A stretch of 35,403 nucleotides of DNA from Elusimicrobiota bacterium. GTDB lineage: Bacteria; Elusimicrobiota; Elusimicrobia; Elusimicrobiales; UBA9959. Under the pieces are notes generated by a model. It searched no databases and was not told the origin of the DNA. It was given only the letters and a program-made list of their open reading frames with translations. A program made the translations under genes and the position numbers. This document shows, one piece after another, positions 2 to 21,567 of the stretch. Every line of letters begins with the position of its first letter. The first letter of the stretch is position 1. The stretch lies in contig JAGVVD010000007.1 in NCBI GenBank assembly GCA_019135865.1, positions 1 to 35,403 of the forward strand. The letters are read 5' to 3'.

Positions 2-322
2 CTGCCCGCCCTCGTGGAGGCCGCGGCCGCCGGCGGCGCGCGGGTCAGGCTGCGCCCCGGGCCGGGCCGCTGGAACAGGGCCTCGCTGGCCGCGCTCAGG
101 CGCGGACTGGCCGGCCTGGGCAAGGCCGTGATCTCCGGCGCGGCCAGGGGACGCCGGCTGCACCTGGACGGCGCCGGCGGGCGCGCCGTCTCGGGGACCG
201 GGCCGGCCGCGGAAGAACTTCGCCGCGGCCTGGACAGGATATTCGAAGGCCTCGGGGCGCTGGCCCGTCCCGGGAACGCTTTCAGGGAGTACCTCGACGG
301 GGTCTCGCAGGCGAGGGGATGA
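2..322 (+). CDS. 3' end of an rSAM-operon protein (distal half-barrel domain), cut by the window edge
   Basis: The frame is open from the left edge (Leu-Pro-Ala-Leu-Val-Glu) and ends at a TGA one base before the next ATG, so only the last ~106 residues are seen. They align by eye with residues ~540-720 of the next gene product. The shared features are a LP-x-LVEAA helix, a Trp followed by LxxLRxGLxxLGxAxxxG, and an EYL-like tail. This is the distal half of the degenerate second radical-SAM-like barrel described for rSAM-1. Unlike rSAM-1 and the 10568-11350 protein, it lacks the PPQWRYDG segment and the Cx8CxxC cysteines. It could be the end of a full rSAM protein or a free-standing half-barrel; the start lies outside the window. 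It shows that the operon extends leftwards. Confidence 0.75.
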   Translation: MPALVEAAAAGGARVRLRPGPGRWNRASLAALRRGLAGLGKAVISGAARGRRLHLDGAGGRAVSGTGPAAEELRRGLDRIFEGLGALARPGNAFREYLDGVSQARG

Positions 323-323
323 C

Positions 324-2507
324 ATGAAAAGCGCTTATACCGAACAGGTCGGCATGACCAACGCTCTTTCCATAGAGCTCTTCATCACCAACCGCTGCAG
401 CATGGACTGCACCTACTGTTCGTCGCGGTACATGATCCACGAGAAGGACGCCAAACGCCTGAGCTTCGAGCAGCTCAAGGTCGCCTTCGACGCGCTGGAC
501 CGCGATCCCTACATCAAAAAACATTTCGGCGGCAAAGTGCACGTGGACCTTACCGGCGGCGAGCCGCTGATAGAGTACGAGACCATAAAACAGATCGTGG
601 CCTATGTCCGGGCCAACCTGGAACTGGAATACGAGTTCGAACTGGAGACCAACGGCACGCTGCTCACCGAGGAGCGCATCAAGTACCTCATCGACAACAA
701 GATCGAGATACGCCTGAGCCTGGACGGCTACAAGGCGCAGAACGACAAGCACCGCCGGTTCCGCAACGCCAGCGACGCCTCCGCCTACGAGGCCATCATC
801 CGCAAGATGAAAATGGGCCTTATCGGCACAAAGCACATGGACCTGGTCTATGTCGGGGCCATACTCGACGCCGAGGACTTCCGGAACCTGCCCAAGGTGA
901 TGGATTACTTCAAGAACGAGCTCGGTTTCCGGCGCATGGAAATAGGCCCGTCGGCCTACGAGCTCTGGGACGAGGCCGCGATAGCCAGGCTGCGCAAGGC
1001 CCTGCGCAGGATGACGCCGGAGCTGATGGCCACGCTCGAATACCAGATGGGCATCAATAAGCGCGAGTCCGTGTTCCACGAGTTCCTCTTCACCCAGTCC
1101 AAGACCATAGGCACGGCCTACGAGGACCTGGCCAAGAAGACCATAACCCTGTTCTACGACGGCTACTGGTACATGTGCGACTTCGTGGTCAAGCCGCCGC
1201 TCGACCCGAAGTTCCGCGTCGGGGAACTGAAGAAAGGCATAGATTTCGGCCGCATCCGGACGATCAGCCGCTACCCGATGTTCAAGGAGATCTATTCCAA
1301 GTGCGAGCACCGCTCCGGGTTCTTCTCGCCGGTCGAGGGCTATTACTGGGGCGTGGTGCACAAGTTCACGCCCCGGCAGCTCGACGACATGATGCGGAAC
1401 ACCTCCAACATGAACAAGGTCCTGGGCGAGGAGGTCGGCTGGTACACCAAGCTGCAGAAGACCTACTACGACCTTTACATGACGCCCGGTTTCGGCGACT
1501 TCGGCCACGAGCCCAAGCACAAGGCGGGCAAGGAGATGCGCACCCTCCGCCTGTCGGTCAGCGACTCGTCCGACATCGTGAAACTGCGGGCCGCGGTGGA
1601 CTTCTTCCTCTACTCGCCCGGCGGCCGCAAACGTCTCATAATGGACGCCACGGACAACGGCGCGGAGACCGCGAAACTGGTCGAGGGCATGGTCCTGTAC
1701 TCGCTGGTCAAGACCGGCAAGGGCTACCTGGACAAGGAGCTCCGCCTGATGCTGGAGACCGACGCCAGGGGTTTCGACGACGACAACTGGCGCTTCCTCG
1801 ACGATCACGGCGTGCAGGTCGGCATCAAGGCGGCCTCCCGCTACAGCGCCGCCACCGCCTACCGACGCAGCTACCGGATGGACGCCGCCCTCAACACGGT
1901 CGACAGCACCTACGCCGTGCTCGGCGTCACGCGCCGCAACGCCCGGAACCTGCCGACCCTGGTGGAGGCGGCCGTGCGCAACGGCTGCCGCTGGGTGCGG
2001 CTGGAGCTCTCCGGCCGCGAGGACTGGGGCGACGCCGACATCGCCGGGCTGCGCTCCGGCATGGAAGCCCTGGGCCGGGCCCTGGTGGCCGGCATCGCCA
2101 GAGGCGAGCCGGTGTACCTGCTGAATTTCGAGGAGGCGGCGGCGCCGGCCGGCTGCCCCGTCTTCGCCGATGCCTTCCTGGCGGACGGAAAGGGCGACTA
2201 TAAGCTGGTCCCGCCGCAGTGGCGCTACGACGGGCGCGGGGTGAAGGTCGGGGACTTCGACCGCGGCGCGGGGGGAGCGGCCGGCTGCTCCTGGTCCGCT
2301 TCCTCGGGGACCTGCGCGGCCTGCCTGCGCCGGACGGCGGCCGCCGGTTACGACGCCTGGGCGGAGCGGGAGTTCTCCGCCGGGCTGCGGAAGCTGCTCG
2401 GGAGCATCGGATATCTGGCGGCCGGGAAGAGACCTTTCGCGGCCTATCTGGAAAGGCTGCGCGCCGACCTGGGGCGGGTCTCCGGGCTGCTGATAAACAA
2501 GAAATGA
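324..2507 (+). CDS. rSAM-1: radical SAM protein with auxiliary-cluster domain and a complete degenerate second barrel
   Basis: 727 residues, far longer than its ~440-490-residue paralogs. The rSAM core is clear: C25-x3-C29-x2-C32, GGEP at 78-81, TNGTLL and SLDG. An SPASM/twitch-like region follows, with C285 (in WYMCDF) and C327 (in SKCEHRSG) as likely ligands of a second Fe-S cluster, and GFGDFGHEPK near 389-398. From ~410 the chain repeats the barrel without the CxxxCxxC. D426 with LYSPGG matches helix 1; LIMDATDNG matches the GGEP strand; LMLETDAR matches LETNGT; GVQVGIKA matches IEIRLSLDG; YAVLGVTRRN (from 530) matches the fifth strand. It ends with PPQWRYDGRGVKVG (630-643) and C611, C655, C664, C667 (Cx8CxxC), a possible extra metal site. 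The ATG has a GAGGGG five bases upstream. Peptide or natural-product modification is likely from the family; the substrate is unknown. Confidence 0.9.
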   Translation: MKSAYTEQVGMTNALSIELFITNRCSMDCTYCSSRYMIHEKDAKRLSFEQLKVAFDALDRDPYIKKHFGGKVHVDLTGGEPLIEYETIKQIVAYVRANLELEYEFELETNGTLLTEERIKYLIDNKIEIRLSLDGYKAQNDKHRRFRNASDASAYEAIIRKMKMGLIGTKHMDLVYVGAILDAEDFRNLPKVMDYFKNELGFRRMEIGPSAYELWDEAAIARLRKALRRMTPELMATLEYQMGINKRESVFHEFLFTQSKTIGTAYEDLAKKTITLFYDGYWYMCDFVVKPPLDPKFRVGELKKGIDFGRIRTISRYPMFKEIYSKCEHRSGFFSPVEGYYWGVVHKFTPRQLDDMMRNTSNMNKVLGEEVGWYTKLQKTYYDLYMTPGFGDFGHEPKHKAGKEMRTLRLSVSDSSDIVKLRAAVDFFLYSPGGRKRLIMDATDNGAETAKLVEGMVLYSLVKTGKGYLDKELRLMLETDARGFDDDNWRFLDDHGVQVGIKAASRYSAATAYRRSYRMDAALNTVDSTYAVLGVTRRNARNLPTLVEAAVRNGCRWVRLELSGREDWGDADIAGLRSGMEALGRALVAGIARGEPVYLLNFEEAAAPAGCPVFADAFLADGKGDYKLVPPQWRYDGRGVKVGDFDRGAGGAAGCSWSASSGTCAACLRRTAAAGYDAWAEREFSAGLRKLLGSIGYLAAGKRPFAAYLERLRADLGRVSGLLINKK

Positions 2508-4066
2508 CGATCGGGATACGGTCTGGCGGCGAATGCGGCGGGCCCGCCGGCGGGAACGCCGGGCGGGCCGTAGCCCCGGCGCTGCTGGAGGTCGAGGTCT
2601 ACCTCACCAACCGCTGCAACCTCGCCTGCTCCTACTGTTCCGCCAGGCACATCATACGCGAGCGCGACGTCTCGCGGCTCACCGGCGCGCAGCTCGAGCG
2701 GGCCGTCGACCTGCTGGCCGCGGACCCGGAGGTGCGGCGCCGCTACGGCCGCCGGGTCAGGCTCACGTTCAAAGGCGGCGAGCCCCTCCTGGAGTACGGC
2801 GCGATGAAGGCGGCCATCGACAGGGTGCGGACCCGGCGGCTGGGTTTCGAACTGGCGCTGACCACCAACGGCACCCTGCTGACGCCGGAGAGGATGGACT
2901 ACCTGGCGCGCAACGGCGTGGAGGTCTGCGTCAGCATAGACGGCTACAAGGAGGTCAACGACCTCCACCGCAGGTTCAAAGGGGCGGACGGCCGTTCCGT
3001 CTACGATTCGGTGATGGGCAACCTGCGGGCGCTGATGGGGGACGAGCGCTACCGGCGGCGCATCCACATAGGGACCACTTTCACCGCCGACACCATCGCC
3101 AGCGCCCCGGACGTGGCCGAGTTCTTCAGCCGCCGTCTCGGTTTCCGTCAGCTCAAGATAGGCATAGAGGTCTACGGGCTCTGGGGGCGGGCCGGCATCG
3201 CCGCGCTGCGCCGCGCCCTCCGGACTTTCAGGGAGAGGCTCCTCGCCTCGCTCCCCGCCGCCGCGGCGGCCGGACGGGTGGAAGAACTTTTCTCCGAGGT
3301 GCAGTTCTCCCAGTATATGCGCAATCTGCCCGACGTCCGGGACGACGGCGCCCGCCTCAACGAGCTGGCCGTCAATCCGCTCGCCCTGTTCTACGACGGC
3401 GCCTTCTACCCCTGCGACCTGGCCCTGAAGCCGCCCCTGGAGAGGCGGTACCGCGTGGGAGACCTGCGGAGCGGCCTCGATCTCCGGCGCTTCGACGAAA
3501 TATGCGCCCTGCCGCGCTTCGCCGGGCTGTCCCGGAAATGCGCCCATCCTTCCGGCCTGCTTTCCCCCGTCGAGCGCTGCTGCTGGGGGATAGTCAACGG
3601 CTACGGGCCGGAGAGGATGGCGAGGCTGCTCGAGAACACTTCCGAGGTCAACGCGGTCTTCGAGCGCGAAATGGGCTCTTACGTCAGGATGCAGCGCGAC
3701 TGCGAGCGGCTTTTCATGACGCCGGGTTTCGGCGACTTCGCCCATGCGCCCAAGTACAAGGGGCCCCGCGAGGTGCGCTTCCTGCGCGTTTCCGCCGGGA
3801 AGGGCGCCGACATCGTCCGCCTGCGGGCGTCCGCCGACTATATGCTCCATTCGCCCGGCGCCGGCAAGACGCTGGCGATAGACGCGGCCGACGCATCCGC
3901 GCTGGACCCGGCCGAGAGCCTCGCGTTCTACGCGATAGTGAAGGCCCGGTGCCTGGGCGGGCGGCTGCTGGTCTCGGTGAGGGCGCCCCGGGGCGCGGCC
4001 GACGCGTCCCGCCGCCGCCGGTTCGCGGCCCTCGGCGTGCGCCTGGAGGAGACGTGCCCGGTATGA
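2504..4066 (+). CDS. rSAM-2: radical SAM / twitch-type protein
   Basis: 520 residues. I chose the ATG that overlaps the rSAM-1 stop (ATGA). The open frame runs further upstream, but that part lies inside rSAM-1. C38-x3-C42-x2-C45 binds the SAM [4Fe-4S] cluster. KGGEP, TTNGTLL and SIDG are present. The auxiliary site is intact: FYPCD, then RKCAHPSG followed by SPVE, so two conserved cysteines are available for a second cluster. GFGDFAHAPK and a C-terminal half-barrel segment (DYMLHSPG, then AFYAIVKAR) follow. The end (RRRRFAALGVRLEE) resembles the next step of the rSAM-1 second barrel (WRFLDDHGVQVG), as if the duplicated barrel had been cut there. There is no obvious SD, so translation probably depends on coupling. 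The product family is rSAM maturase-like; the substrate is unknown. Confidence 0.88.
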   Translation: MTIGIRSGGECGGPAGGNAGRAVAPALLEVEVYLTNRCNLACSYCSARHIIRERDVSRLTGAQLERAVDLLAADPEVRRRYGRRVRLTFKGGEPLLEYGAMKAAIDRVRTRRLGFELALTTNGTLLTPERMDYLARNGVEVCVSIDGYKEVNDLHRRFKGADGRSVYDSVMGNLRALMGDERYRRRIHIGTTFTADTIASAPDVAEFFSRRLGFRQLKIGIEVYGLWGRAGIAALRRALRTFRERLLASLPAAAAAGRVEELFSEVQFSQYMRNLPDVRDDGARLNELAVNPLALFYDGAFYPCDLALKPPLERRYRVGDLRSGLDLRRFDEICALPRFAGLSRKCAHPSGLLSPVERCCWGIVNGYGPERMARLLENTSEVNAVFEREMGSYVRMQRDCERLFMTPGFGDFAHAPKYKGPREVRFLRVSAGKGADIVRLRASADYMLHSPGAGKTLAIDAADASALDPAESLAFYAIVKARCLGGRLLVSVRAPRGAADASRRRRFAALGVRLEETCPV

Positions 4067-5466
4067 GCCGCCTCCCCGTCCCGGAACCTTTCCTGGTCGA
4101 GGTCTTCCTGACCGGCCGCTGCAACATGGACTGTTCCTACTGCGCCGCGCGCTACATGATACATGCGAAGGAGCCCGGCCTGCTGACCTTAGAACAGCTG
4201 GAACGGGCGGCGGAAATCATCGCCTCCGACGGGGTAGTGCGGGAGAGGCACGGCGGCCGCGCCAAGATCTCTTTCACCGGCGGCGAACCGATGCTCGAGT
4301 TCCCTCTCATAGAAAGGGCGGTGAGGCATATCCGCGCCCGGCATCCGGACTGGGAATTCGACGTCTCCACCAACGGCACGCTCCTGACCCCGGAGAGGCT
4401 GGAGTTCTTCGTGCGCAACGGCGTGGGTCTCAGCGTGAGCCTGGACGGCTTCGGCCGCGTCAACGACTCGCACCGCCGCTTCGTCTCGGGAAAGGCCTCC
4501 GCTTTCGGCGTGGTCGAGCGGAGCCTGCGCGCCGGCCTGGACGACCCGCGCTACCGGGACATGTTCCATGTCGCCGCGACCCTGACCAGCCGCACCATCG
4601 GGGACCTGCCCGGCGTCGTGAGTTTTTTCAGGGAGCGGACGGGGCTCAGGGAGCTCGAGATCGCGCTGGAGGCCTACGAGGACTGGGGGCCGCGGGCGCG
4701 CGCCGGTCTGCGCCGCGTCCTGCGGGGGCTGGGGAGGAGATGCGCGGCGGCCCTGGAGCGCGGCGAAGGCGCCGAGGAGGCTTTCAGGGAATTCATCTTC
4801 ACGCAGGCCAAAGGGGCCGGGGCCCGCGAACTCGTCCGGAAATCGCTCACGCTCTTTTACGACGGCCGTTTCTATCCCTGCGATTTCGTGGTCAGGCCGC
4901 CGCTGGAGGAGAAATACTGCGTGGGGGACCTGGAGCGGGGGCTGGACCACCGCCGGCTGGAGGCCCTGGAGCGGCTGCCGCTTTTCCGGGAGATAGAGCG
5001 GAAATGCGAGTACAAGTCCGGACTTCTTTCCCCCGTGGAGCGCTACTACTGGGGAATGGCGCACGGCTATTCGCGCCGGGAGCTCGACGCCGTGCTCCTC
5101 AATACTTCGGAGGTCAACAGGATCTTCCACGAGGAACTGGGCCCTTACCTGCGCCTGCAGCGGTCCTACGCGCGGCTTTTCATGTCCCCCGGCTTCGGCG
5201 ATTTCGCCCACGCCCCCAAGTTCAGCGGCCGCGCTCCCGCCGGGCTCCTCCGCCTCGCCGCCGCGGCCGGCGCCGATCCCGCGCGGCTGCGCGCGGCTGC
5301 GGACTGGACGCTCCACGCGCCCGGCGCGCGCGCCTCCCTGGCCCTGGCGGCCCCCGGCGGCGCGCCGGAGGCGGGGGACATCGCTTTCTACGCCATGGCC
5401 AAATCGCGCATGCTGGGCAAACGCGTGCGGATCCGCCTGGAGCCGGACGGCGGGGGGCGGGCATGA
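4063..5466 (+). CDS. rSAM-3: radical SAM / twitch-type protein
   Basis: 467 residues. The ATG overlaps the rSAM-2 stop, with GGAGGAG about ten bases upstream. C20-x3-C24-x2-C27 (preceded by TGR instead of the usual TNR), TGGEP, STNGTLL and SLDG define the SAM core. The linker EAYEDW lies at the end of the sixth strand. FYPCD and RKCEYKSG keep both auxiliary cysteines, followed by SPVERYYWG. GFGDFAHAPK and a short C-terminal half-barrel segment (DWTLHAPG, then AFYAMAKSR) close the protein. It is closest by eye to rSAM-1 and rSAM-2. Its own start is secure from the position of the first strand (FLVEVFLTGRC). Confidence 0.88.
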   Translation: MSRLPVPEPFLVEVFLTGRCNMDCSYCAARYMIHAKEPGLLTLEQLERAAEIIASDGVVRERHGGRAKISFTGGEPMLEFPLIERAVRHIRARHPDWEFDVSTNGTLLTPERLEFFVRNGVGLSVSLDGFGRVNDSHRRFVSGKASAFGVVERSLRAGLDDPRYRDMFHVAATLTSRTIGDLPGVVSFFRERTGLRELEIALEAYEDWGPRARAGLRRVLRGLGRRCAAALERGEGAEEAFREFIFTQAKGAGARELVRKSLTLFYDGRFYPCDFVVRPPLEEKYCVGDLERGLDHRRLEALERLPLFREIERKCEYKSGLLSPVERYYWGMAHGYSRRELDAVLLNTSEVNRIFHEELGPYLRLQRSYARLFMSPGFGDFAHAPKFSGRAPAGLLRLAAAAGADPARLRAAADWTLHAPGARASLALAAPGGAPEAGDIAFYAMAKSRMLGKRVRIRLEPDGGGRA

Positions 5467-6863
5467 TAGTCAACCCGCTGCGCGCCGATCACCGCCCCCG
5501 CGAGGAGTTCCTGCTCGAGGTCTTCCTGACCAACCGCTGCAACCTGGACTGCTCGTACTGCTCCTCGCGGCGGATGATAGACGAGCCGGCGCGGCGCGCC
5601 CTTTCGTTCGGGCAGGTGCGGCGCGCGGTGGACGTCTTCGCCGCCTACGGGAGGAGGAAGGGCGCGCCGCAGGAGCGCACCGTCTTTTTTACCGGCGGCG
5701 AGCCTTTCCTGGAATACGACGTTCTCCGGCGCTCCGTGGAGTACATCGACTCCCTGCCGGGCCGGTTCCGCGTCAGGATAGCCACCAATGCGACGATGCT
5801 GGACCCGGAAAGGGTGAAGTTCCTCGCCGCGCATAATGTCCGGATCTTCGTCAGCCTCGACGGCTGCCGCAAGGCGCACGACCGCCACAGGGTCTTCCGC
5901 GGCGGCCGCGCTTCCTTCGATCATATAGACCGCGCGCTGCGCCGCCTGCCCCGCGCCGTCCGGAGCGGACCCAATTTCTGCGTTTCCGCCACTTTTACCT
6001 CCGAGACCGCGAAGTGGCTCCCCGAGAGCCTGGATTATTTCCGGGACCTGGGCATAAGCGTGGTCGAGATCTGCCCCGAGGCCTACGAGGTCTGGAAGCC
6101 CGCCGGCATAGCCCGCGCGTCCGCGGTGCTGGCCCGGGTGGCGCGGGAGCGGCTCTGCCGCCGTTTCGACGGCGGGGACGGCGGCCCGCAGTTCGTCTTC
6201 TCCAACAGCTCGGCCCCCGACAACGCGAAGTGGTCGCTCGCCGACTACAGGGACACGCTGCTCCACAGCGTCAGCCTGATGTACGACGGCTTCTTCTATC
6301 CCTGCGAGGCGGTCTTCGGCGGCGGGACGGACGCGGCCTACCGCATCGGCGACGCGGAGCGCGGCATAGACCGGCGGCGGGCGGAGAAAGTCTACGCGGC
6401 CGCGCTCGCGCGCATAGGGCGCTGCGCCCCGTCGGTGGGGACGCTGCTGACGGCCGGGCGCTACTATTACGCCGTGAATGCCGGGCTCGACCCGGCGGAA
6501 TATTTCGACAACGCCCGGCGCGTGAACGAGGCCTTCGACTCCGCCCTGGGGGGCTACCTGCGCGCCCAGGTGCTGCACGACCGCGTCACGGCGCTGCCGG
6601 CTTTCGGCGATTTCGCCCACGCCCCCCGCCTCGCCTCCCGGCGTGAGCTCCCCGCCCTCAGGCTGGAAGCGGCGCCCGGCTCCGACCCGGCGCGGCTGCG
6701 CGCCTGCGTCGATCATTTCCTTTATTCCCCCGGCGGGCGCAAGGCGCTGACCATCCGCCGCGCCGCCGGCGCGGAGGAAGTCTCCTCGGCCCTGGCGCTG
6801 TACGCCCTTTCCAAGGCGGGCCGCCTGCGCAAAGAACTTTCGGTCAGGACGGAGGCCGCGTGA
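5463..6863 (+). CDS. rSAM-4: radical SAM / twitch-type protein
   Basis: 466 residues. The ATG overlaps the rSAM-3 stop. C26-x3-C30-x2-C33, TGGEP and SLDG are present; the TNG strand reads TNAT. FYPCE and a diverged GRCAPSVG keep two auxiliary cysteines, although the SG-x-LSPVE context is altered to TLLTAGR. FGDFAHAPR and DHFLYSPGGRK with LALYALSKAG mark the C-terminal half-barrel. The protein stops exactly where rSAM-1 would continue into the distal half. That distal half is found at the N-terminus of the next gene product (6860-9157), so the pair together reproduces the rSAM-1 layout. Confidence 0.88.
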   Translation: MIVNPLRADHRPREEFLLEVFLTNRCNLDCSYCSSRRMIDEPARRALSFGQVRRAVDVFAAYGRRKGAPQERTVFFTGGEPFLEYDVLRRSVEYIDSLPGRFRVRIATNATMLDPERVKFLAAHNVRIFVSLDGCRKAHDRHRVFRGGRASFDHIDRALRRLPRAVRSGPNFCVSATFTSETAKWLPESLDYFRDLGISVVEICPEAYEVWKPAGIARASAVLARVARERLCRRFDGGDGGPQFVFSNSSAPDNAKWSLADYRDTLLHSVSLMYDGFFYPCEAVFGGGTDAAYRIGDAERGIDRRRAEKVYAAALARIGRCAPSVGTLLTAGRYYYAVNAGLDPAEYFDNARRVNEAFDSALGGYLRAQVLHDRVTALPAFGDFAHAPRLASRRELPALRLEAAPGSDPARLRACVDHFLYSPGGRKALTIRRAAGAEEVSSALALYALSKAGRLRKELSVRTEAA

Positions 6864-9157
6864 CGGCTCCCGCCGCGAGACCGCCGGCGAAGGAGCTCGA
6901 GGTCCCCGGGCATTCGCTGACCCCGGAGAAGGCCGCCGCGCTGCTGCGTCCGGGTGCGGAAGTCTGGGCCGTCTTCGAAGGCGCGGCCGGCGCGCGCGCC
7001 ACGGCGGCCAGGCTCGCGGCTATTCCCCCGGACCTGCTCCGGCGGATATGCGTGTCCGGAGTTTTCGGCCCCGCCGACGCCGGTTCGCTGCTGCGCTCCG
7101 CCCGGCTCTTCCGCAAGACGGACATAAAAGAACTGGTCTTCGAACTGGACCCGCGCGCCGCGTGGAGGGGAGCGGGGCTGGCGCGGCTGCGCGCGGAGCT
7201 GAAGCGGATAGCCCTGGACTTCGCCCGCGAACTGCGCTCGGGGTCTTTCCCGTGGCCGCAGCCGAGCCGCCTCTACGGCATCGACCTGGCCGGCGGCTCC
7301 TTCGCGCCTCCCGGCGCCGCCGCCGCGGTGAAGAGGGAGATCGGTTTTTTCGCCGCCATAGAGAGGAAGCTCCGCCGCCTGGCCGCCGGTGACGCGGCAG
7401 GGGCCCTGGAATTCTTCCAGCCCCTCACGGCCTGCGGCTTCCGCGGCGGCATCGGGCGCAAGGCGGAGACTCTCAGGCGGCTGGCCGCGTCCGGCGGGGC
7501 CGTGCCGCCGTCCTATGTGCTTTCGGCGGGAACGCTGCGGCGCCTGTCGCCGGCGCTCGGCGCGGCCCGGCGGAGCCCGTCCCCGCGCGGCGCCGGCCTC
7601 CGGTTCCTGGCCGAGCTGCGCGGGCTTTTCCCGGCGGGCCGCCGGTTCATCGTCAGGAGTTCCTCCGCCGAAGAGGACGCGCCGGGCGCCTCCTTCGCCG
7701 GGGTCTTCCGCTCGGAAGTGGTCGCTTCGCCGGGCGGCGCGCCCGCCGCGATACGGCGCTGCCTGGCCTCCGGGCGGGACGCGGGGTCGGCCGTCTACAG
7801 GCGGCTCTCCGGGCGCGGCCGCCGGGCCGCCGGGGGTATGGCGCTGCTGTTCCAGCCTTTCGTCGAGACCGGGCTGGGCGGCGTCGCCGTCTTCGACGGG
7901 CAGGGCCGGGCCGTCATGGAACTTTCCCGCGGCGGCAATGCCGGCATAACGGGCGGCCGCTCCGCCGACTGGCGCTTTGTCCTGGACGCGCGCGCCCGCC
8001 GCCTGGACTGCCCGCCGCGCTCCCCGCTGTCCCGTTCCGCGGCCGCGCGGCTGCTCTCGGCGCTGGCCTCCGCGAAGAACGGGCTTTTCCCTTCGGGCGC
8101 GGCCTCGTTCGAATTCCTGGCCGGGGGCGGAGAACTCCTTTTCCTGCAGGCGCGCCCCCTGCCGCGCGCGCCCGGGGAGACGCGCGCTGATATGCCGGCC
8201 GTCTACGCGCGCATAGCGGCGGCCATGTCCGGCCTCGGCCTCGGGCCGCGCGGCTGGAGCCTGGCCGAGACGGCGGACGTGGCGGCTTTCAATTTCCTCG
8301 GCCTCGCGCGGCCGGCGGGAGAACGGCTGGAGCATTTCCGCGTCAGGATAAGCCGCGCGGCCAGGGAAAAGATCTCCCGGCGCGGCTGGGTCAGCGTCAA
8401 ATACGACGACGACGACGACACGCTCTTTCCCTCCGGCCTCCCTCCGCGGCGGCGGGCCGCGCTTGAGCGCCTGGCCCGGGAGGGGATATTCGTCATGTTC
8501 GTGCTGCCGAAAGAAGGCGAGACGGTCCTGCGGCGGACGCTGTCTTTCCCCGCGCCGTCCGTCCGGCTGCGCGTCCCGTTCTCCTATTCCCCCGAGGGGC
8601 TGGAGAAGGAAGAGGAACGCGACCTGCTCCGGCGCGACCCGGCGGAGGCGGCCGCCTGGCTGCGGCGCCTGGCCCGCGAACGCGAGATCTGGCTGGGCGT
8701 GCGCCGCGTCGTCCGTGCCGGAAAGGCCGGGGCCTACGGCCGGGCGCTGGCCCGCTTCCTCCCGGGGGAGTTGGCGCTCATAGCGCGCAAGGAGCGGCTG
8801 GCGCGCCGCGCGGCCGCGCGCGCTCCCTCCGGAAGCGCCGCTGTAAAAGGGCTGCCTTTCCGACCGGCCGACGCGGTACTCTCCGGCGTGGCCGTGACGG
8901 CCGCCAAAGCCGCCGCCTGGAAAGGCGGACCTTTCGTCTATTTCGGCCACGACCTGGAGCCCTGTTTCCTGCCGCTGATGGACCGCATAAAGGCGGTCGT
9001 CGTCTCGCGGGGGGCCTTCGGCTCCCACGCGGCGCAGATCTGCTCGGAACTGGGCGTCCCGCTGATACTCGAAACTTCCAACCTGGGCCTGGTCCGGGAC
9101 GGCGACCGGGTCGCGCTGGACCTGCGCACCGGCGAAGTGAGGAGGAAGCCGGAATGA
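6860..9157 (+). CDS. PEP-utilising-type phosphotransferase (ATP-grasp plus swivelling His domain) with a half-barrel N-terminus
   Basis: 765 residues. The GTG start overlaps the rSAM-4 stop, with GGAGG just upstream. Residues ~50-150 resemble the distal half of the rSAM-1 second barrel. Residues ~190-435 look like the pyruvate-phosphate-dikinase/PEP-synthase ATP-binding domain: VRSSS from V265, then AEEDAPGASFAG, and QARP at 430-433. Residues ~435-690 are an unrecognised middle domain with a run of five Asp. Residues ~695-765 resemble the PEP-utilising mobile domain, with GSHAAQ and likely phosphoryl-carrying H723, then ELGVP and DGDRVALDLRTGEV. The order ATP domain, middle, His domain, with no C-terminal TIM barrel, matches rifampin phosphotransferase-like enzymes rather than PPDK. 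I infer an ATP-dependent phosphorylation or activation of a pathway intermediate; the substrate is unknown. Confidence 0.8.
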   Translation: MTAPAARPPAKELEVPGHSLTPEKAAALLRPGAEVWAVFEGAAGARATAARLAAIPPDLLRRICVSGVFGPADAGSLLRSARLFRKTDIKELVFELDPRAAWRGAGLARLRAELKRIALDFARELRSGSFPWPQPSRLYGIDLAGGSFAPPGAAAAVKREIGFFAAIERKLRRLAAGDAAGALEFFQPLTACGFRGGIGRKAETLRRLAASGGAVPPSYVLSAGTLRRLSPALGAARRSPSPRGAGLRFLAELRGLFPAGRRFIVRSSSAEEDAPGASFAGVFRSEVVASPGGAPAAIRRCLASGRDAGSAVYRRLSGRGRRAAGGMALLFQPFVETGLGGVAVFDGQGRAVMELSRGGNAGITGGRSADWRFVLDARARRLDCPPRSPLSRSAAARLLSALASAKNGLFPSGAASFEFLAGGGELLFLQARPLPRAPGETRADMPAVYARIAAAMSGLGLGPRGWSLAETADVAAFNFLGLARPAGERLEHFRVRISRAAREKISRRGWVSVKYDDDDDTLFPSGLPPRRRAALERLAREGIFVMFVLPKEGETVLRRTLSFPAPSVRLRVPFSYSPEGLEKEEERDLLRRDPAEAAAWLRRLAREREIWLGVRRVVRAGKAGAYGRALARFLPGELALIARKERLARRAAARAPSGSAAVKGLPFRPADAVLSGVAVTAAKAAAWKGGPFVYFGHDLEPCFLPLMDRIKAVVVSRGAFGSHAAQICSELGVPLILETSNLGLVRDGDRVALDLRTGEVRRKPE

Positions 9158-10530: not shown

Positions 10531-10567
10531 ATACTCGGAGGCGGGGCGACCGCCACGGAGGCGGACA

Positions 10568-11350: not shown

Positions 11351-11405
11351 CGGTCCGCCCGCCGCCGCCGGCTTCCCGCCCCCGTTCCCCGCGGTCCGCC
11401 ACATT

Positions 11406-14083: not shown

Positions 14084-15501
14084 ACCGCTCCTCCGCCCTC
14101 CGCGCGCTTCAACTGCTGCCGGCCAGCCTGGAGATCTACCTGACCTCCGCCTGCAATATGCGCTGCGGCTATTGCTCCAGCTCCGCCATCGTGAACGGCC
14201 CTGCCCGCCGCCTGACGGAGGGGCAGGTGAAGCGCGGCATAGACCTTTTCGCCGCCCTCTGTTCGCCCCGGACCGCGGCGGCCGCCGGCGGGGACCCCAA
14301 GTTCCGGGTCGTCGGCCTGACCGGCGGGGAGCCGCTGCTCGAGTTCGGCGCCGCCGCCGCCGCCGTCGAGCACGTGCGCAAGAACCACAAGCGGCTGTCG
14401 GTGACGGTCTCGACCAACGGCCTCCTGCTGGACCGGGAGAAAGCGCGGTTCCTGCTGGACCGGGACGTGGACCTCACGGTCAGCCTGGACGGGCCGCGCC
14501 GGGCCACGGATTCCCAGCGGCGCTTCGCGGCCGGCGGGGGCTCCGTGTCCGCCGCGGTACTGCGCCGCCTCGCGCGGCTGCCCGCCTCCTATCTCCGCCG
14601 TATGCGCGTGATGGCCACCTTCACCCCGGACACCGCGCCGGACATCGCCGGCAGCGTGCGCTTCCTGCGGGGGCTCGGTTTCGCCGCCGTGGAGGCCGAC
14701 CTGGACATGTACGCCGACTGGACAGCCCGCGACCTGGCCCGCCTGCGCGCCGGCCTGGCCCGCCTGCGCGGCCTCTACATGCGCGGGTTCCGCGACGGGG
14801 ACTGGACCTCCGACTGGGGGGATATCTTCGGCGGCGCGCTGCAGAACAAAGTGCGGGGTGCCGGCCCCTACGAGGCCTTTCACGAATTCTCCCTCTCCTG
14901 CGACGGCTGGTTCTACCCGGCCGACGTGCCCGCCCTGTTCGGCCCCGGGCCGGGTCCCGGCGCTTTCGCCGTGGGCGGCCTGGAAAAAGGAGTCGACCTT
15001 CGGCGGCTTAAAGGACATCTCGACGCGGCCGCCGCCTTCCTGGGGCGCCGCTCCGGTCCCGGCGAGGCGGTGCCGCCCGCCTGCCGATACTTCAACGCCC
15101 TGGCCAGGGGGCTCGACCCCGCCGCCGCGATGGACGGTTTCGACCGGCTCTGCGCCGTGTTCGACGAGGAGCTCGGCGGCCTGCTGCGCCTGGAGCGCGT
15201 CTTCCGCCGGCTGGCCCGCGCCCGCGATTTCGGGGATTTCTCCCACCGGCCGAAGTCCCTGCCCCGCCACCGGGCGGCTTCGCTCGCCGTGCATCCTTCC
15301 GCCGGCCTCGGAGCGGCGCGCCGCGCCGCCGACAGGGCGCTCTACGCCCCCGGCCGCCGCAAGGCCCTGCGCTTCGCCGACCCCGGACCGGCCGGGCGCG
15401 GCGACGCGCTGGGGCTGGCCCTCTATTCCGCGCTCAAGGGCGCCTGGCTGGGCGGGAAGCCGCGCGTCGCCCTGGAATCCGGCGGGAGGAGGTCGCCATG
15501 A
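14080..15501 (+). CDS. rSAM-8: radical SAM protein with auxiliary Cys replaced by Ala
   Basis: 473 residues. The ATG overlaps the rSAM-7 stop, with GGAGG about six bases upstream. C25-x3-C29-x2-C32, TGGEP, STNGLLL and SLDG are intact. The motif before the first Cys is TSAC rather than TNRC, shared in spirit with rSAM-9 and -10 (TDAC). The auxiliary site reads FYPADV, with alanine in place of cysteine; the only cysteine near the second site is in PPACRYF. DFGDFSHRPK and DRALYAPGRRK with ALYSALKGA are present. The linker is DMYADW. The substrate is unknown. Confidence 0.87.
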   Translation: MNRSSALRALQLLPASLEIYLTSACNMRCGYCSSSAIVNGPARRLTEGQVKRGIDLFAALCSPRTAAAAGGDPKFRVVGLTGGEPLLEFGAAAAAVEHVRKNHKRLSVTVSTNGLLLDREKARFLLDRDVDLTVSLDGPRRATDSQRRFAAGGGSVSAAVLRRLARLPASYLRRMRVMATFTPDTAPDIAGSVRFLRGLGFAAVEADLDMYADWTARDLARLRAGLARLRGLYMRGFRDGDWTSDWGDIFGGALQNKVRGAGPYEAFHEFSLSCDGWFYPADVPALFGPGPGPGAFAVGGLEKGVDLRRLKGHLDAAAAFLGRRSGPGEAVPPACRYFNALARGLDPAAAMDGFDRLCAVFDEELGGLLRLERVFRRLARARDFGDFSHRPKSLPRHRAASLAVHPSAGLGAARRAADRALYAPGRRKALRFADPGPAGRGDALGLALYSALKGAWLGGKPRVALESGGRRSP

Positions 15502-16907
15502 CCGGCGGGAAACCGTCCGACGCCGCGCGCCGGCTCCGCGCCGTCCCTTCTTCCCTGGACATATACATGACGGACGCCTGCAATATGCGCTGCTCTTACT
15601 GCGCCAGCGCCAGGTTCATAGAGGGAGGCGGGGCCAGGACCCTGCCGCCGCGGCTCCTGCTGCGGGGCGTTGACGCCTTCGCGGCGCTGGTCGCTCCCCG
15701 CCGAGGCGCGGCCGATCCGTCCGCGGTGAGGGAGGTCTCCTTCACCGGCGGCGAACCGCTGCTCCGCTGGGACCTGCTGAGGGATTCGGTCCGGGCGATA
15801 AAGCGCAAATATCCCTGGCTCAAACAGACCGTTTTCACCAACGGCACGCTGCTCACGCCGGAAAAGGCGGACACGCTGCTGCGCGCGGGCGTCAGGATAG
15901 TGGTGAGCCTCGACGGCGGCCTCGCCGTCAACGACCGGCACCGCCGGCTGGCCGACGGCCGGCCGGGTTTCGCCGCCGTGGCCGCGAACCTGCGCCGCCT
16001 CGGCGCCGCCCGCCGCGCGGAGCTGCACCTGATGGCCACCTTCACCCCGGCGACGGCCGGCGCCATAACGGAGACGGTCAGGTTCTTCCGTACCCTGGGC
16101 TGCCGCGACATACACCTGGGCCTGGACCTCTACGAGGACTGGTCCCCGGCGGCCCTGGCCAGCCTGCGGGCCGCCCTGGCGGAACTGAGGGCTTACTGCC
16201 TGAGGGACGGCGCCGCCGCCCGGGGGCCGGGCGGGGACTGGGATTTCAACTTCTATTTCAAGGACCGCGTGGCCGCCTGCCTCGACCTGACGCCGTCTAA
16301 CTCCTTCACTCTCTCGCCCGACGGATTCTTCTACCCCTGCGACGAGCTCTGCATCTCGGCCGCGGACCCGGCGAAGTACGCCGTCGGGTCGGCGGAGAGC
16401 GGCCTGGACCTGGACCGGCTCGGGCGCGTCTACGCCGCCGTGGAGCGGCGCGTGAAGGGACTGGACCTGGTCAACGGCGTGCTTTCGCCCATAGACAGGT
16501 ATTTCCGCGCGGTGCTGGACGGGCGCGATCCGTCCGCCTCGCTGCGGGCCGGCGGGCGGGTGACGCGCGTCTTCATGGAGGAGCTCGGCGGGCTGGTCGA
16601 AGTGGAGCGGCTTTTCAAACTGCTGGCGCGCGCGCCCGGCTTCGGCGATCTCATGCACCGGCCCCGCCACGCCCTGCGCGCCGGGGGCCGCCGCTCGCGG
16701 CTGATCGCGCCGGCTTCGCCCGGCGCGCTGGCGGCTTCGCGGGCCGCCGCGGACCTGCTGCTTTACTCCCCGGGTAAGCGCAAGGAGCTGGTCCTGCGCG
16801 CGGAGCGCTCTTTCGGCGGCGCGGCCCGCGGCCTCGCCCTCTACGCGGCGCTCAAGGGCGCGCGGCTCGGCGGGCGGACCCGGGTGAGCCTGGAGGCGGG
16901 CCGGTGA
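15498..16907 (+). CDS. rSAM-9: radical SAM protein with CxxxC auxiliary variant
   Basis: 469 residues. The ATG overlaps the rSAM-8 stop and is preceded by a strong SD (GGAGGAGG at ~15486-15493). C28-x3-C32-x2-C35, TGGEP, FTNGTLL and SLDG are intact. The auxiliary segment FFYPCDELC has the same CxxxC pair as rSAM-7, and the distal cysteine is missing (VNGVLSPIDRYF). GFGDLMHRPR and DLLLYSPGKRK with ALYAALKGAR complete the shared layout. The linker is DLYEDW. It shares the TDAC-NMRCSYC style of rSAM-8. Confidence 0.88.
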   Translation: MTGGKPSDAARRLRAVPSSLDIYMTDACNMRCSYCASARFIEGGGARTLPPRLLLRGVDAFAALVAPRRGAADPSAVREVSFTGGEPLLRWDLLRDSVRAIKRKYPWLKQTVFTNGTLLTPEKADTLLRAGVRIVVSLDGGLAVNDRHRRLADGRPGFAAVAANLRRLGAARRAELHLMATFTPATAGAITETVRFFRTLGCRDIHLGLDLYEDWSPAALASLRAALAELRAYCLRDGAAARGPGGDWDFNFYFKDRVAACLDLTPSNSFTLSPDGFFYPCDELCISAADPAKYAVGSAESGLDLDRLGRVYAAVERRVKGLDLVNGVLSPIDRYFRAVLDGRDPSASLRAGGRVTRVFMEELGGLVEVERLFKLLARAPGFGDLMHRPRHALRAGGRRSRLIAPASPGALAASRAAADLLLYSPGKRKELVLRAERSFGGAARGLALYAALKGARLGGRTRVSLEAGR

Positions 16908-18292
16908 AAAAGAACCCCGCCCTTCCGCTCTATCCGCGGGCCGAATTCCCCCGGGAACTGGACCTCTGCCTGACCGACGCCTGCAACCTCGACTGCCGCT
17001 ACTGCTATTTCACCGCCAAGGCCAGGACCGCGCCGTCCTCCCTCTCGCCGGCGCAGGTGGAGCGGGCGCTGGACCTTTACCTGGAGCGCCTGCCGGCCCG
17101 GCGCGTGCAGAAGTTCAGCTTTTCCGGCGGCGAGCCGCTGCTGCGCTGGGACTCGCTCATAAGCGGCGTGGCCTCCGCCCGCCGGCGGCTTGGCCCGCGG
17201 CCCAATATCGAGGTCTTCACCAACGGCACCCTGCTCGACCGGCGCAAGGCCGAGGCCCTGCTGGCGCACGACCCCGAACTGGTCATAAGCCTGGACGGGC
17301 CGCGCGCGGTCTGCGACGCTGGCCGCCGCTTCTACGGCCGCGGCGGCTCGGTGTTCGACGCCGTCGACCGCAATCTCCGCGCGCTCGGGCGGGGACTGGT
17401 CTCGCGCTGTTTCGCCGGCTCCACTTTCAGCGCCGCGACGGTCTCCAGGATGCGCGAGAGCGTGGAGTACCTGCTGGAGCGCGGCTTCAAATGCGTGATA
17501 GTCGACCTGGACGTCCTGGCGCGTTGGGACCGGCGCTCGCTGGACGTCCTGCGCCGGCAGGCGGAGGGGCTCAAAAAGCTCTACTCCTCCTCGATGAACC
17601 TGGGCTTCGGCGAGGTGCAGCAGCGGCTGCGCTTCGACTTCCTGATCTCGCGGGAGGAGCTGCGGCAGGTGGCGCGCCCCGCGGGGCTCAAGGAACTTTC
17701 CCTCGCGCCCGACGGGAAGTTCTACCCCAGCGGACTGGTCTCCGGGCGCGGCGCGGAGAAGGCGCGCTACGCCGTCGGCAGCCTCGCGGAAGGTTTCGAC
17801 ACGGGCAGGATGAACGCCGTGCTGGGCGAACTGCGCGGCTATTTCGGCCGGCACGCCAGGAGCGGCTACAACGGCTGCCCCACCCACGTCTATTTCGCCT
17901 GCCGCCTGGAGGGACGCTCCACGGAGGAGGTCTTCGATTCGGGCGAACGCCTGTTCGGGGCGCTGGACCCGGTGGTGGGGCCCGTCATAGATTTCGAACT
18001 GCTGCAGAACTCCCTGGCCTCGGCGAAGGACCTCGGCGATTTCGACCATCCGCCGCGGCTGGCGCCCGCCGCGGGCCCGGCGGAGCTGAAGCTCTCCCTT
18101 TCTCCCGGGGCGGGACGGGCCAGGGACGCCGCGGACGCGGCGCTCTATCCGCCCGGCCCCTCCAAGCGCCTGGAACTGGCGGCCGCGGAGAACGACCCGC
18201 CCGACGCGCTGCGCCGCCTCGCGGCCTATTCGCTGATGAAGGCGCGGCTGCTGGGGAAGAAACTCAGGCTCGCCGTCGTGGCGGACGGCTGA
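16904..18292 (+). CDS. rSAM-10: radical SAM protein, YCYF subclass
   Basis: 462 residues. The GTG start overlaps the rSAM-9 stop, with GGAGG about seven bases upstream. C27-x3-C31-x2-C34 continues as YCYF instead of YCSS, shared only with rSAM-11, so these two form a subgroup. SGGEP, FTNGTLL and SLDG are intact. The auxiliary site reads FYPSGLV, with serine for cysteine. Other cysteines occur at NGCPTHVYFAC, but their spacing does not match the paralogs. The sixth-strand motif is diverged (DVLARW). LGDFDHPPR and DAALYPPGPSK with AAYSLMKAR are recognisable. Confidence 0.87.
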   Translation: MKKNPALPLYPRAEFPRELDLCLTDACNLDCRYCYFTAKARTAPSSLSPAQVERALDLYLERLPARRVQKFSFSGGEPLLRWDSLISGVASARRRLGPRPNIEVFTNGTLLDRRKAEALLAHDPELVISLDGPRAVCDAGRRFYGRGGSVFDAVDRNLRALGRGLVSRCFAGSTFSAATVSRMRESVEYLLERGFKCVIVDLDVLARWDRRSLDVLRRQAEGLKKLYSSSMNLGFGEVQQRLRFDFLISREELRQVARPAGLKELSLAPDGKFYPSGLVSGRGAEKARYAVGSLAEGFDTGRMNAVLGELRGYFGRHARSGYNGCPTHVYFACRLEGRSTEEVFDSGERLFGALDPVVGPVIDFELLQNSLASAKDLGDFDHPPRLAPAAGPAELKLSLSPGAGRARDAADAALYPPGPSKRLELAAAENDPPDALRRLAAYSLMKARLLGKKLRLAVVADG

Positions 18293-18298
18293 TTTAAG

Positions 18299-18304
18299 TA
18301 TCAT
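18299..18304 (+). promoter_or_regulatory. Putative -10 element for the HemN-like gene
   Basis: TATCAT (5/6 to TATAAT) lies in a short AT-rich gap of 21 bases. It ends nine bases before the ATG at 18314, and no SD is present. This geometry would give a nearly leaderless transcript. No -35 match is seen, because the upstream sequence is coding. Confidence 0.3.
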
Positions 18305-18313
18305 ATTCACGGC

Positions 18314-20104
18314 ATGCTCATGGACGATACGCAACTCAAGGCGCTTTTCGGGCTGATGGACGCGGAGAACCCGCCGGAATACCCGCCCCATTACCCGCCG
18401 CCCGCGCTCTGGAAAAAGAACTTCTCCGGCGCGGACGCCGCCGCCGCCTGGCGGCGCTCGCTGGCCCGACGCGGCGACCTGGTCCTCTACGTCCACCTGC
18501 CTTTCTGCCGCGAGGTCTGCGCTTTCTGCGGCTTCTACGCCCGCCCCTGCCCCGGTCCCGGCGCCGTCGACGATTATCTCTCCGCGCTGGAGCGCGAAGC
18601 GGCCCTGCTCTCGCCCCTTTTCGCGGGCCGCCGCTTCAAATGGCTCTGTTTCGGCGGCGGCACGCCGTCGCTGCTCTCCGGCCCGCAGTTGCGGCGCCTC
18701 TTCGGCGCGGTGAAAGGGAACTTCCGGCCCGCGCCGGGGGCCCGCACCGCCTTCGAGTCGCACCCGGACAGCCTCGACCCGGCCAAGTTGCGGCTGCTCA
18801 AAAAGCTCGGCGTGGACTGGCTTTCCATCGGCGTGCAGACCTTCGACGACGCGGTGCTGAAAAAGAACGGCCGCCGGCAGGACAATTCCAGGGTGCCGGG
18901 CCTGGTGCGCGCCGCCCGGTCCGCCGGCATCAAGAACGTCCAGCTCGACCTCATCGCCGGCCTCCCCTTCCAGTCGCGGGAGGCTTTCGCCGCCGACGTG
19001 GAGAAGGCCGCGCGGCTGGACCCGGAACGCATCTACCTCTTCCCTTTCCAGGCCAAGGAACGCGTGCGGCTGAAGGCGAGGCAGGCGCCCTGGCTGTGGG
19101 AGGCCTACCGGGGCGCGGTGGAGTCGCTCTCCCGGCGGGGTTACGAGCTCAGCTGCGGCCGCTGGCTTTATAAAAGGAGCGGCGGCGACTGGCCTTACAG
19201 CTACGACCAGGGCGAGCGGATGTCCCGCGATTTCTACTCGGTGCTGGGGCTCGGCGCCGGCGCCATCTCCTACGCCAGGTACGGCGCGCGCTACCAGAAC
19301 CTGGCGGACCCCGCCGCCTACGCGCGGGCGCTGTCCGGCGGCCGCCTGCCCGCGGCCAGGGGCTGCCGGCTGGGCGAAAAGGAGGAAGCGCTCAATTTCC
19401 TCCTGCTCAATTTCCTCCAGCGCGGCGCGCTGGACCGTCGGGAATTCCGCTCCGTCTTCGGCCGCGGCCCGCGCGGCGTCTTCGGCCGGGTCCTGGACTC
19501 GCTGGCCGCCGACGGTACGCTGGTCGCCTCCCGCGACGGCTGGCTGCTGGACGACAGGGAGAACGGCCTGTTCCGCCTGAGGAAGGCCTTCTATCCCCCG
19601 GGGCCGCTCGCCGCCGCCGCGCGCGCTTACGGCCGGCGGCTCGCCTCCGCGGCGCGCGCGGGGGAGAAGCCCTCCGCCGCACCGGCCGGGAGCGGCCGCG
19701 CCGGCGCCTCCGGCACGCTCGTTTTCGAAGCGGGGCGCGCCCCCTTCGCCGCGCTCGCGCCCGCTCTGCTGCGGGAGATAAAAGCGCGCCGTCCCGGGAC
19801 GGTCCTTCTCTACTGCTCGGGGCCCGGCCCGGGCCCCGCGCTGCCACGGCTGGCGGAGCTGGTCGGCCGCGCGGGGATGAAGGCGGCCGTCAACCTGCCG
19901 CCCTGCCTGCTGCCCGGCCTGCCGCGGCTGCCCCAGGCCGCGCCGGCCGGGAGCGGCGATCCCGGCGTCTTCCGGCCGGAGGGCTGGGTCAAGCCGGCGC
20001 GCTGCGCCGACTGCGTCCTTCAGCTGGAGTGCCCCGGCCTGGACTCCGCCTACGCCGCGCGCCACGGCGCGCGCGCGGTGAGGCCGCTGAGGAGGCGCCC
20101 GTGA
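18314..20104 (+). CDS. HemN/HemW-type radical SAM protein with degenerate half-barrel and C-terminal CxxCx5C
   Basis: 596 residues. YVHLPFC with C65-x3-C69-x2-C72 followed by GFYA, GGGTPS near 114-119 and IGVQTFDD are signatures of the coproporphyrinogen-dehydrogenase-like/HemW/class C methyltransferase superfamily. A winged-helix-like HemN C-terminal region follows (NFLLLNFLQRGALDRREF). Beyond ~470 there is an addition not usual in HemN/HemW. It runs from LVFEAGRAP through LLYCSG to AGMKAAVNLP, matching the GGEP, TNG and SLDG strands of an rSAM barrel without their catalytic residues. It then ends in C564-x2-C567-x5-C573-PG with a Tyr and a His-Gly, as seen at auxiliary clusters of other rSAM proteins. 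The family transfers radicals or methyl groups, or acts on tetrapyrroles; the role here is unknown. An alternative start is the ATG six bases downstream. Confidence 0.82.
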   Translation: MLMDDTQLKALFGLMDAENPPEYPPHYPPPALWKKNFSGADAAAAWRRSLARRGDLVLYVHLPFCREVCAFCGFYARPCPGPGAVDDYLSALEREAALLSPLFAGRRFKWLCFGGGTPSLLSGPQLRRLFGAVKGNFRPAPGARTAFESHPDSLDPAKLRLLKKLGVDWLSIGVQTFDDAVLKKNGRRQDNSRVPGLVRAARSAGIKNVQLDLIAGLPFQSREAFAADVEKAARLDPERIYLFPFQAKERVRLKARQAPWLWEAYRGAVESLSRRGYELSCGRWLYKRSGGDWPYSYDQGERMSRDFYSVLGLGAGAISYARYGARYQNLADPAAYARALSGGRLPAARGCRLGEKEEALNFLLLNFLQRGALDRREFRSVFGRGPRGVFGRVLDSLAADGTLVASRDGWLLDDRENGLFRLRKAFYPPGPLAAAARAYGRRLASAARAGEKPSAAPAGSGRAGASGTLVFEAGRAPFAALAPALLREIKARRPGTVLLYCSGPGPGPALPRLAELVGRAGMKAAVNLPPCLLPGLPRLPQAAPAGSGDPGVFRPEGWVKPARCADCVLQLECPGLDSAYAARHGARAVRPLRRRP

Positions 20105-21567
20105 AGAAAAAGGAGACGCTGCCGATAGGGTCCTTCGATATCTGCCTGTCCAACCGCTGCAACCTGGCCTGCCGGTACTGCTATTTCGACTCCATCAACC
20201 GCGGCGCGCCGCAGTTCCTGGACTTCGCGGCCGTGAAGAAGGCCGTCGACGCCTATGTCTCCCTGGTTTCCGTCAGGGGCATAGATAAGATCAGCGTCGC
20301 GGGCGGCGAGCCGTTCCTGGATTTCCCGCTGCTGCTGAAGATAGCGAAGTACATACGGCGTTCCTGCGGTCCGCGGACGGAGATAGAGGTCTTCACCAAT
20401 GGCACGCTGGCGACCCCGGAAAAGATGCGGCGCCTGCTGCGCTATACCGGCAAGATCGTGATCAGCCTCGACGGGCGCAAGGCGAGCAACGACCTCAACC
20501 GGGTTTTCCTGAAAGGCAGGGATTCGGTCTTCGAGGCCGTGATGAACAATCTTCGCGGCCTCACGGCGGCGGAGCGGCTGAAGGTGTGCGCCAGCATGAC
20601 GGTGACGGCCGCCACCGCCGGCGGCCTGTGCGCCAATATCCGCTTCCTGCGCGGCCTCGGGCTGGGCGAGGTGCAGATAAACGTCAACCTGCTGGAGCGC
20701 TGGAGCCGCGAGGACCTGGACCGGCTGCGCGTTTCGGCGCGCGCGCTCAGGGCCTATTACGGGGAGCTGGCCGCGGCGGAACTGCGTTCCTTCGAAGGCT
20801 TCCGCTTCGGCCTGGAGTACATCCTGCTCAAATGGGACGAGACGCTGAAAGAGAGCGGCGTCTTCAAGGAAATCTCCGTCGCGCCGGACGGCCGCTTCTA
20901 TCCCTGCGGGCTGGTCTCCACCTACGGGCCGCAGAAACGGGAATTCGCGATAGGAACGCTGGAAAAGGGCTTCGACCGCCGCCGGCTTCGTTCGCTGCGC
21001 GCCGCCGCCGTCCGCGCCATGCTGGCCGCGGACCGCGGGATAGGGCTGCTGGAATACATCCCCAACCCGATGCTGCTCTATTTCGAGACCCGGCTCAAGG
21101 GCGAGGACCTGCGGGAGGTCTTCGCCAACGCGCGCCGCGTCTTCAAGGTCTTCTACGACGAGCTTTCCGTCTTCCTGCGGCTGGAGAGGTTCTTCGACAT
21201 CCTCTCCAGCGACCCGCTGGTGGGCGACTTTTCCCACGAGCCGCCCTTCAGGTCCGGAAAGGGACTGCGGTCCCTGGCCGTCGCCATGGGCGAGCCCGGC
21301 CGCCCGGCCGCCAAGGCCTGCGCCTGCGGCAAGGGCTGGGTCGGTTTCCCGGGCCTGGCGCAGCGGCGGCGCGCGGCCGACCTGCTGCTCTATTCCCCCG
21401 GCGGGAACAAGGAGCTGCGGCTGCGCTCGGAGCGCCCGTCGGAGGAGTTCGAACTGACCGGCTCCGCGGCCGTCTACGCGGCCCTCAAGGCCCGCGCGCT
21501 GGGAGGAAAGCTGAAGGTGAAAGTGGAACTCCCGCCGGGCGGCGTCACTTCTTCTTCACGTACTTGA
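20101..21567 (+). CDS. rSAM-11: radical SAM protein, YCYF subclass, last gene of the operon
   Basis: 488 residues. I chose the GTG overlapping the previous stop (GTGA), with GAGGAGG upstream (MKKKETLPIG). C20-x3-C24-x2-C27-YF, AGGEP, FTNGTLA and SLDG define the core. One auxiliary cysteine is kept (FYPCGLV); the second is missing. VGDFSHEPP is a diverged form of the shared motif. Before the half-barrel (DLLLYSPGGNK, then AVYAALKAR) there is an insertion with Cys-Ala-Cys-Gly, absent from the paralogs. The 3' end overlaps the convergent SpoIID gene by 23 bases, and no terminator is seen between them. Confidence 0.87.
   Translation: MKKKETLPIGSFDICLSNRCNLACRYCYFDSINRGAPQFLDFAAVKKAVDAYVSLVSVRGIDKISVAGGEPFLDFPLLLKIAKYIRRSCGPRTEIEVFTNGTLATPEKMRRLLRYTGKIVISLDGRKASNDLNRVFLKGRDSVFEAVMNNLRGLTAAERLKVCASMTVTAATAGGLCANIRFLRGLGLGEVQINVNLLERWSREDLDRLRVSARALRAYYGELAAAELRSFEGFRFGLEYILLKWDETLKESGVFKEISVAPDGRFYPCGLVSTYGPQKREFAIGTLEKGFDRRRLRSLRAAAVRAMLAADRGIGLLEYIPNPMLLYFETRLKGEDLREVFANARRVFKVFYDELSVFLRLERFFDILSSDPLVGDFSHEPPFRSGKGLRSLAVAMGEPGRPAAKACACGKGWVGFPGLAQRRRAADLLLYSPGGNKELRLRSERPSEEFELTGSAAVYAALKARALGGKLKVKVELPPGGVTSSSRT

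Follow-up and report, generated by a model that had tools for sequence, protein, structure and literature searches.

What could a bacterium do with eleven paralogous radical S-adenosylmethionine (rSAM) enzymes encoded one after another? The question is raised by contig JAGVVD010000007.1 of an Elusimicrobiota draft genome (GCA_019135865.1; 2.95 Mb, scored 100% complete). The whole of this contig (C36; 35,403 bases, 68% G+C) is the window analyzed here, and an initial annotation of its letters described, between positions 2 and 21,567, a coupled series of such enzymes with no visible precursor peptide and no named counterpart. On balance, we think it likely that this array is an accessory, lineage-restricted arm of an enlarged peptide-maturation supercluster of the HxsA4-type His-Xaa-Ser (HXS) kind, most of which lies on a neighboring contig.

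The array itself is as first described. Gene calling recovered all eleven complete paralogs (g1-g4, g6, g8-g12 and g14), each with a match to PF04055 above the cut-off, and the ten reported 4-base stop/start overlaps were found at g1/2, 2/3, 3/4, 4/5, 5/6, 8/9, 9/10, 10/11, 11/12 and 13/14. The remaining spacings are 1 nucleotide, a 20-nucleotide overlap, 55 nucleotides and 21 nucleotides. No gap exceeds 55 nucleotides, too little for a precursor gene, and the presence of one inside the array was therefore rejected; Rfam and tRNA scans of the window gave no match. Pairwise identities among the paralogs range from 23 to 47% and are highest between neighbors (g2-g3 47%, g10-g11 42%, g1-g3 40%), a pattern that is as expected if tandem duplication was followed by long divergence.

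The left edge of the window is an assembly break, and contig C42 of the same genome adjoins it. Window bases 1-47 are the exact reverse complement of C42 bases 1-47, the 47-mer is unique in the genome, and a reading frame stays open across the junction. On C42 this frame encodes an aldo/keto reductase (PF00248, E 7e-33; 994 to 1, minus strand), and its last 106 residues are encoded by the fragment at window positions 2..322 on the plus strand (g0), with a C-terminal extension akin to the second domain of g1 described below. Thus the fragment at position 2, taken at first for a partial relative, belongs to the 3' end of a reductase gene and is not a truncated rSAM gene, and its candidacy as a twelfth paralog was rejected. 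The join is confirmed by a complete genome of the same genus (G119), in which orthologs of the right-hand genes of the window are followed by a SpoIID-like gene and then directly by an rSAM gene, rSAM12, whose counterpart in the source genome lies at C42:18810-19883. By this synteny, window positions 1-21567 and C42:1-18706 make up a single added block, some 40 kb long, that sits at the edge of the cluster and is absent at that site in G119. An assembly artefact, for which absence of the gene order from every related genome would have spoken, was rejected on the contig overlap, the synteny and the presence of orthologs elsewhere, parts of the array being found in two genomes of other genera.

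What lies on C42 supplies the context that the window lacks. Within the block are five further members of the paralog family, a TPR protein, a secreted Cys-rich protein (c11) and two genes for NifH-NifD fusions with NifK-like partners. Beyond it follow a third NifH-NifD/NifK-like pair, three HxsB genes, HxsC-like and HxsD-like genes, a HemN-type rSAM gene and a secreted TTYYPAPYGGY protein. Above all, C42:51386-51805 encodes an HxsA4 precursor of 139 residues, with the layout MKKKPSKIRKNIRLFLNSEEGKMLDADIVK...(HGS)n...ARGGWC and 22 HXS motifs, so that the reported lack of a precursor is true of the window and untrue of the region beyond it. The precursor scores 87.8 bits against the HxsA4 model NF038313 (cut-off 55) and does not reach the cut-off of the older HxsA model TIGR03979. 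The same arrangement of leader and (HGS)n, mostly ending in RGGWC, was found in 11 genomes (the source genome and clusters of ten others), with 0 such runs in shuffled sequence, and HxsA4 is present in 93 of the 341 genomes of the phylum. Two of the HxsB proteins score 425 and 461 bits (cut-off 370) and the third 327. The surroundings of the array therefore do match a named system, the HxsA4-type HXS system (NCBIfam NF038313, TIGR03978, TIGR03977, TIGR03976), through HxsA4 and HxsB above their cut-offs, with HxsC- and HxsD-like genes nearby, so that the initial statement of no named system needs qualifying; the locus is, however, an enlarged form of that system, with about 32 rSAM-family genes (counted over both contigs), three nitrogenase-like pairs, a dikinase-like enzyme and an extended aldo/keto reductase in about 76 kb. 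The HXS loci known so far center on a pair of rSAM enzymes, HxsB and HxsC, according to PMC9062424, which cites Haft and Basu.

The TTYYP protein (C42:54057-54776), with the motif LTLTTYYPAPYGGYARLLTT, also occurs in seven HXS clusters elsewhere, including one on an Omnitrophica contig (L085:6325-6870); it is found once per cluster, is single-copy in the source genome, and offers a second candidate for what the HXS enzymes act on. Beside the HxsC-like rSAM gene, C42:27114-28888 holds an adjacent gene pair, one member matching U32 peptidase (PF01136) and the other resembling its partner in the two such pairs of G119.

Only two other genomes among the 341 of the phylum have strong relatives of the array. 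One (G114) belongs to the same family, and its genes run, along transcription, TTYYP, HxsD, HxsB, HxsA4, c11 and then three array genes, two of them the orthologs of g14 and g12. The other (G232), from another family of the class, carries an array fragment with a g5-like dikinase (37% identical to g5) and 4-base overlaps. It is mainly because of these two contexts that we link the array with HXS and not with the nitrogenase-like genes. Other genomes have single-copy relatives of about 360 residues within HXS-type clusters, and viral contigs yielded no relative of g1. A scan of genome contigs outside the phylum returned ordinary peptide-modifying rSAM genes, the sole exception being an HXS-type cluster from Omnitrophica that holds one relative.

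Several observations weigh against reading the array as part of an HXS supercluster. The link of the array proteins to HxsA4 and the HXS enzymes is one of gene context, and the HxsA4 gene lies about 51 kb from the array. The array occurs in 3 of 341 genomes of the phylum as against 93 for HxsA4, so basic HXS function does not require it. The best named matches for HxsC remain below the curated cut-offs (HxsC4 157 bits, cut-off 500; HxsC 90 bits, cut-off 268), as do those for HxsD (35 and 27 bits, E 1e-8 and 5e-6, cut-off 50). Finally, no paper giving the product of any HXS system was found in the literature searched, and the literature on HxsA4/HxsC4 and on rSAM genes in Elusimicrobiota offered nothing useful.

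That most HXS carriers lack the array would also be expected if it belonged to a separate peptide or protein pathway, with a substrate of its own such as c11, that merely adjoins the HXS genes. The Cys-rich c11 family (C42:17672-18706, G114:C157:28659-29786, L085:8927-9652) has a suggestive position, directly before the paralogs of the block in the source genome and directly before the three array genes in G114. However, G119, G141 and the Omnitrophica contig lack the array yet have relatives of c11 next to HxsA4 or HxsB, which argues that c11 belongs to the HXS context, and the window part of the block holds no other precursor candidate. We therefore regard a separate pathway as improbable.

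All eleven window paralogs (440-727 residues) keep CxxxCxYC, GEP, TNG and SxDG; the proposal that only some members are catalytic thus fails within the window, as all eleven retain the SAM and cluster motifs. A motif-less member lies outside it, at C42:1097-2368, where a paralog without CxxxCxxC keeps an open frame and constitutes a natural pseudo-rSAM protein. The nearest solved folds are CteB (Z 28), anSME (Z 27) and ChlB (Z 26), all peptide- or protein-modifying, in agreement with the kinship first proposed. The designation SPASM/twitch, by contrast, does not apply in the strict sense, because the auxiliary-cluster set is gone from all eleven: at most one or two SPASM cysteines are left in the array, mostly only that of FYPC. 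The set is intact in the Omnitrophica relative, and four of its cysteines are kept in relatives from two further genomes (G154 and G127). The paralogs scanned score 52-88 bits against the HxsB model (cut-off 370) and 77-121 bits against the PapB model NF047865 (cut-off 340). Although the catalytic domain is closest in sequence and fold to maturases of the PapB/CcpM/CteB rSAM/SPASM type, the array departs from them in these low scores, in the loss of the SPASM cysteines and in the addition of a degenerate second rSAM barrel.

This second barrel is complete in g1 (324..2507, plus strand like all array genes; 727 residues, PF04055), where it follows the catalytic domain. The C-terminal half of g1 is colinear with the catalytic domain (hhalign E 3.4e-8, probability 95, 211 columns); a 73-column C-terminal fragment aligned alone gives a probability of 6-8. 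In the AlphaFold2 (AF2) model of g1 (pLDDT 77.7) this half is predicted to form six beta/alpha units, and taken alone it matches CteB at Z 14.8 and CteB/anSME at Z 13-15, as against about 9 for generic barrels. As modeled, then, this half is a second rSAM barrel; the CxxxCxxC cluster motif is missing from it, which makes it a pseudo-rSAM domain. The first part of the domain is kept in the other paralogs, and the second part is a gene of its own, g7 (10511..11350), which is 41% identical to the g1 C-terminus, has no Pfam or NCBIfam match, and has four cysteines of the domain in common with g1. The 20-nucleotide overlap of g7 with the paralog g6 (9154..10530, 458 residues) suggests that the two were once one g1-like gene. 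Further pieces of the domain occur at the N-terminus of g5 and in the C-terminal extension of the aldo/keto reductase, which matches an rSAM profile.

A maximum-likelihood tree indicates how the array came about. On it, g12 (16904..18292, 462 residues) groups with a G232 gene (100/99) and a G114 gene (100/98), g14 (20101..21567, 488 residues) with a G114 gene (100/98), and g9 (12761..14083, 440 residues) with a G232 array member (98/95). Nine of the 16 members, namely g1, g2 (2504..4066, 520 residues), g3 (4063..5466, 467 residues), g4 (5463..6863, 466 residues) and the five on C42, form a clade private to the source genome (99/99). The remaining paralogs are g8 (11406..12764, 452 residues), g10 (14080..15501, 473 residues) and g11 (15498..16907, 469 residues). 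These groupings make the array partly old and shared and partly the outcome of more recent local amplification; judging from the tree, the g1-g4 group is the younger part. The size of the private clade is what one would also see in a largely redundant tandem duplication in decay, with many copies lacking a distinct role, and the C42 member without a cluster motif and the truncated or split second barrels fit such a picture. Set against it, all eleven window members are intact and translationally coupled and keep their catalytic motifs at 23-47% identity, and the orthologs of g12 and g14 in other genera imply long selection. Decay is accordingly very unlikely in our estimation, and the old orthologous lines of g12 and g14 suggest, as far as phylogeny can, different sites or steps rather than mere gene dosage.

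The nitrogenase-like (NFL) genes of C42 invite a different account. They encode NifH-type ATPase and nitrogenase component 1 domains (PF00142 2e-58, PF00148 8e-35), and the source genome has four NifH-NifD fusion/NifK-like pairs in all (C42:6839-14560, C42:28934-32717 and C54:152159-155961). The locus resembles nitrogenase-like systems with rSAM partners (NflBHDK/IsrBHDK, PMC11423573; CfbCD; BchLNB) in having NifH and NifD/K-type domains beside rSAM genes, and differs from them in the fusion of NifH to a NifD-like part, in the presence of three pairs in one peptide-maturation cluster and in the lack of HemB and HemC. The long fusion occurs in about 20 genomes of the family. One might suppose that the array serves these neighbors in making or reducing a tetrapyrrole-like cofactor: two of the pairs lie within the 40-kb block that holds the array and a third is not far off; the closest match of the NifH part is CfbC of F430 synthesis, although it falls short of the cut-off; and HemN/HemW-type rSAM genes are present. 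Meheust et al. reportedly predicted in 2020 that Elusimicrobia nitrogenase paralogs accompanied by many rSAM genes reduce a tetrapyrrole. Yet the source genome, scored complete as it is, has no match to HemB (PF00490) or HemC (PF01379), and HemC is missing in 14 of the 20 genomes of the family with the long fusion, which weakens the tetrapyrrole idea, although salvage is possible. Moreover, G114 has array-family genes and no NFL match in its genome, and the HemN-type proteins also include peptide methyltransferases such as NocN. We consider service to a tetrapyrrole pathway doubtful.

Three genes stand between the paralogs, as first noted, but for two of these supposedly non-paralogous partners the description needs correcting: g7 is the second half of a g1-type C-terminal domain, and g13 (18314..20104) also belongs to the rSAM enzymes, as one of the HemN/HemW type. 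The nearest NCBIfam family of g13 is STM4012, below the cut-off, its nearest solved structures are HemN (1olt) and the methyltransferase NocN (9p2u), and its C-terminal extension ends in CxxC...CPG. Five HemN/HemW-type rSAM genes lie close together in the array-free genome G119 (C40:19690-27292). The third partner, the dikinase-like g5 (6860..9157; PF01326 and PF00391 above cut-off), begins with an rSAM half-barrel piece (E 7e-8 in a whole-genome search), followed by an ATP-binding domain of the pyruvate phosphate dikinase (PPDK) type, a middle region and a C-terminal phospho-His mobile domain with an SHAA histidine. The C-terminal phosphoenolpyruvate (PEP)-binding barrel of PEP synthase and PPDK was not found in g5, which stops after the His domain. 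Rifampin phosphotransferase and PigC/RedH likewise have the ATP-binding domain first, the phospho-His domain last and no PEP barrel; g5 differs from them in its middle region and its added N-terminal piece. To the right, the array is bordered by a SpoIID-like/TPR gene on the minus strand (21545..23611), and the right end of the window (30888-35232) has pilin-like prepilin genes, among them one that carries a large insert with repeats.

How might such an array act on HXS substrates? With the 5'-deoxyadenosyl radical, each paralog would remove a hydrogen atom from a residue in the HXS-repeat peptide or in one of the secreted proteins encoded with it, the Cys-rich or the TTYYP protein. The degenerate second barrel, of which g1 has a complete copy, g7 the split-off second part, and g5 and the aldo/keto reductase smaller pieces, would serve these enzymes as a common docking or scaffold module and so bring them together on the peptide. 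Paralogs without auxiliary clusters may carry out redox-neutral steps or pass electrons to partner subunits, candidates for which are the four-cysteine site of g1 and g7 and the nitrogenase-like proteins. In its most ambitious form this would be an rSAM assembly line: sixteen paralogs, specialized by site or step and held together through a common pseudo-rSAM docking module, would work one after another, along with nitrogenase-like reductases, on a single HXS-repeat peptide. We offer this version tentatively and think it rather unlikely as a whole. If it were true, reduction of a ribosomal peptide by nitrogenase-like enzymes would, to our knowledge, be without precedent.

HXS systems have so far been recognized from sequence, and the machinery assembled here far exceeds that of known clusters of the type, showing the extent to which such systems can enlarge around one repeat peptide. 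Because the precursor missed at first is now supplied, the system can be reconstituted. The locus thus provides a test case for the action of nitrogenase-like enzymes on peptides, for what becomes of an rSAM paralog once its auxiliary clusters are lost, and for the use of a dead rSAM barrel as a docking module.

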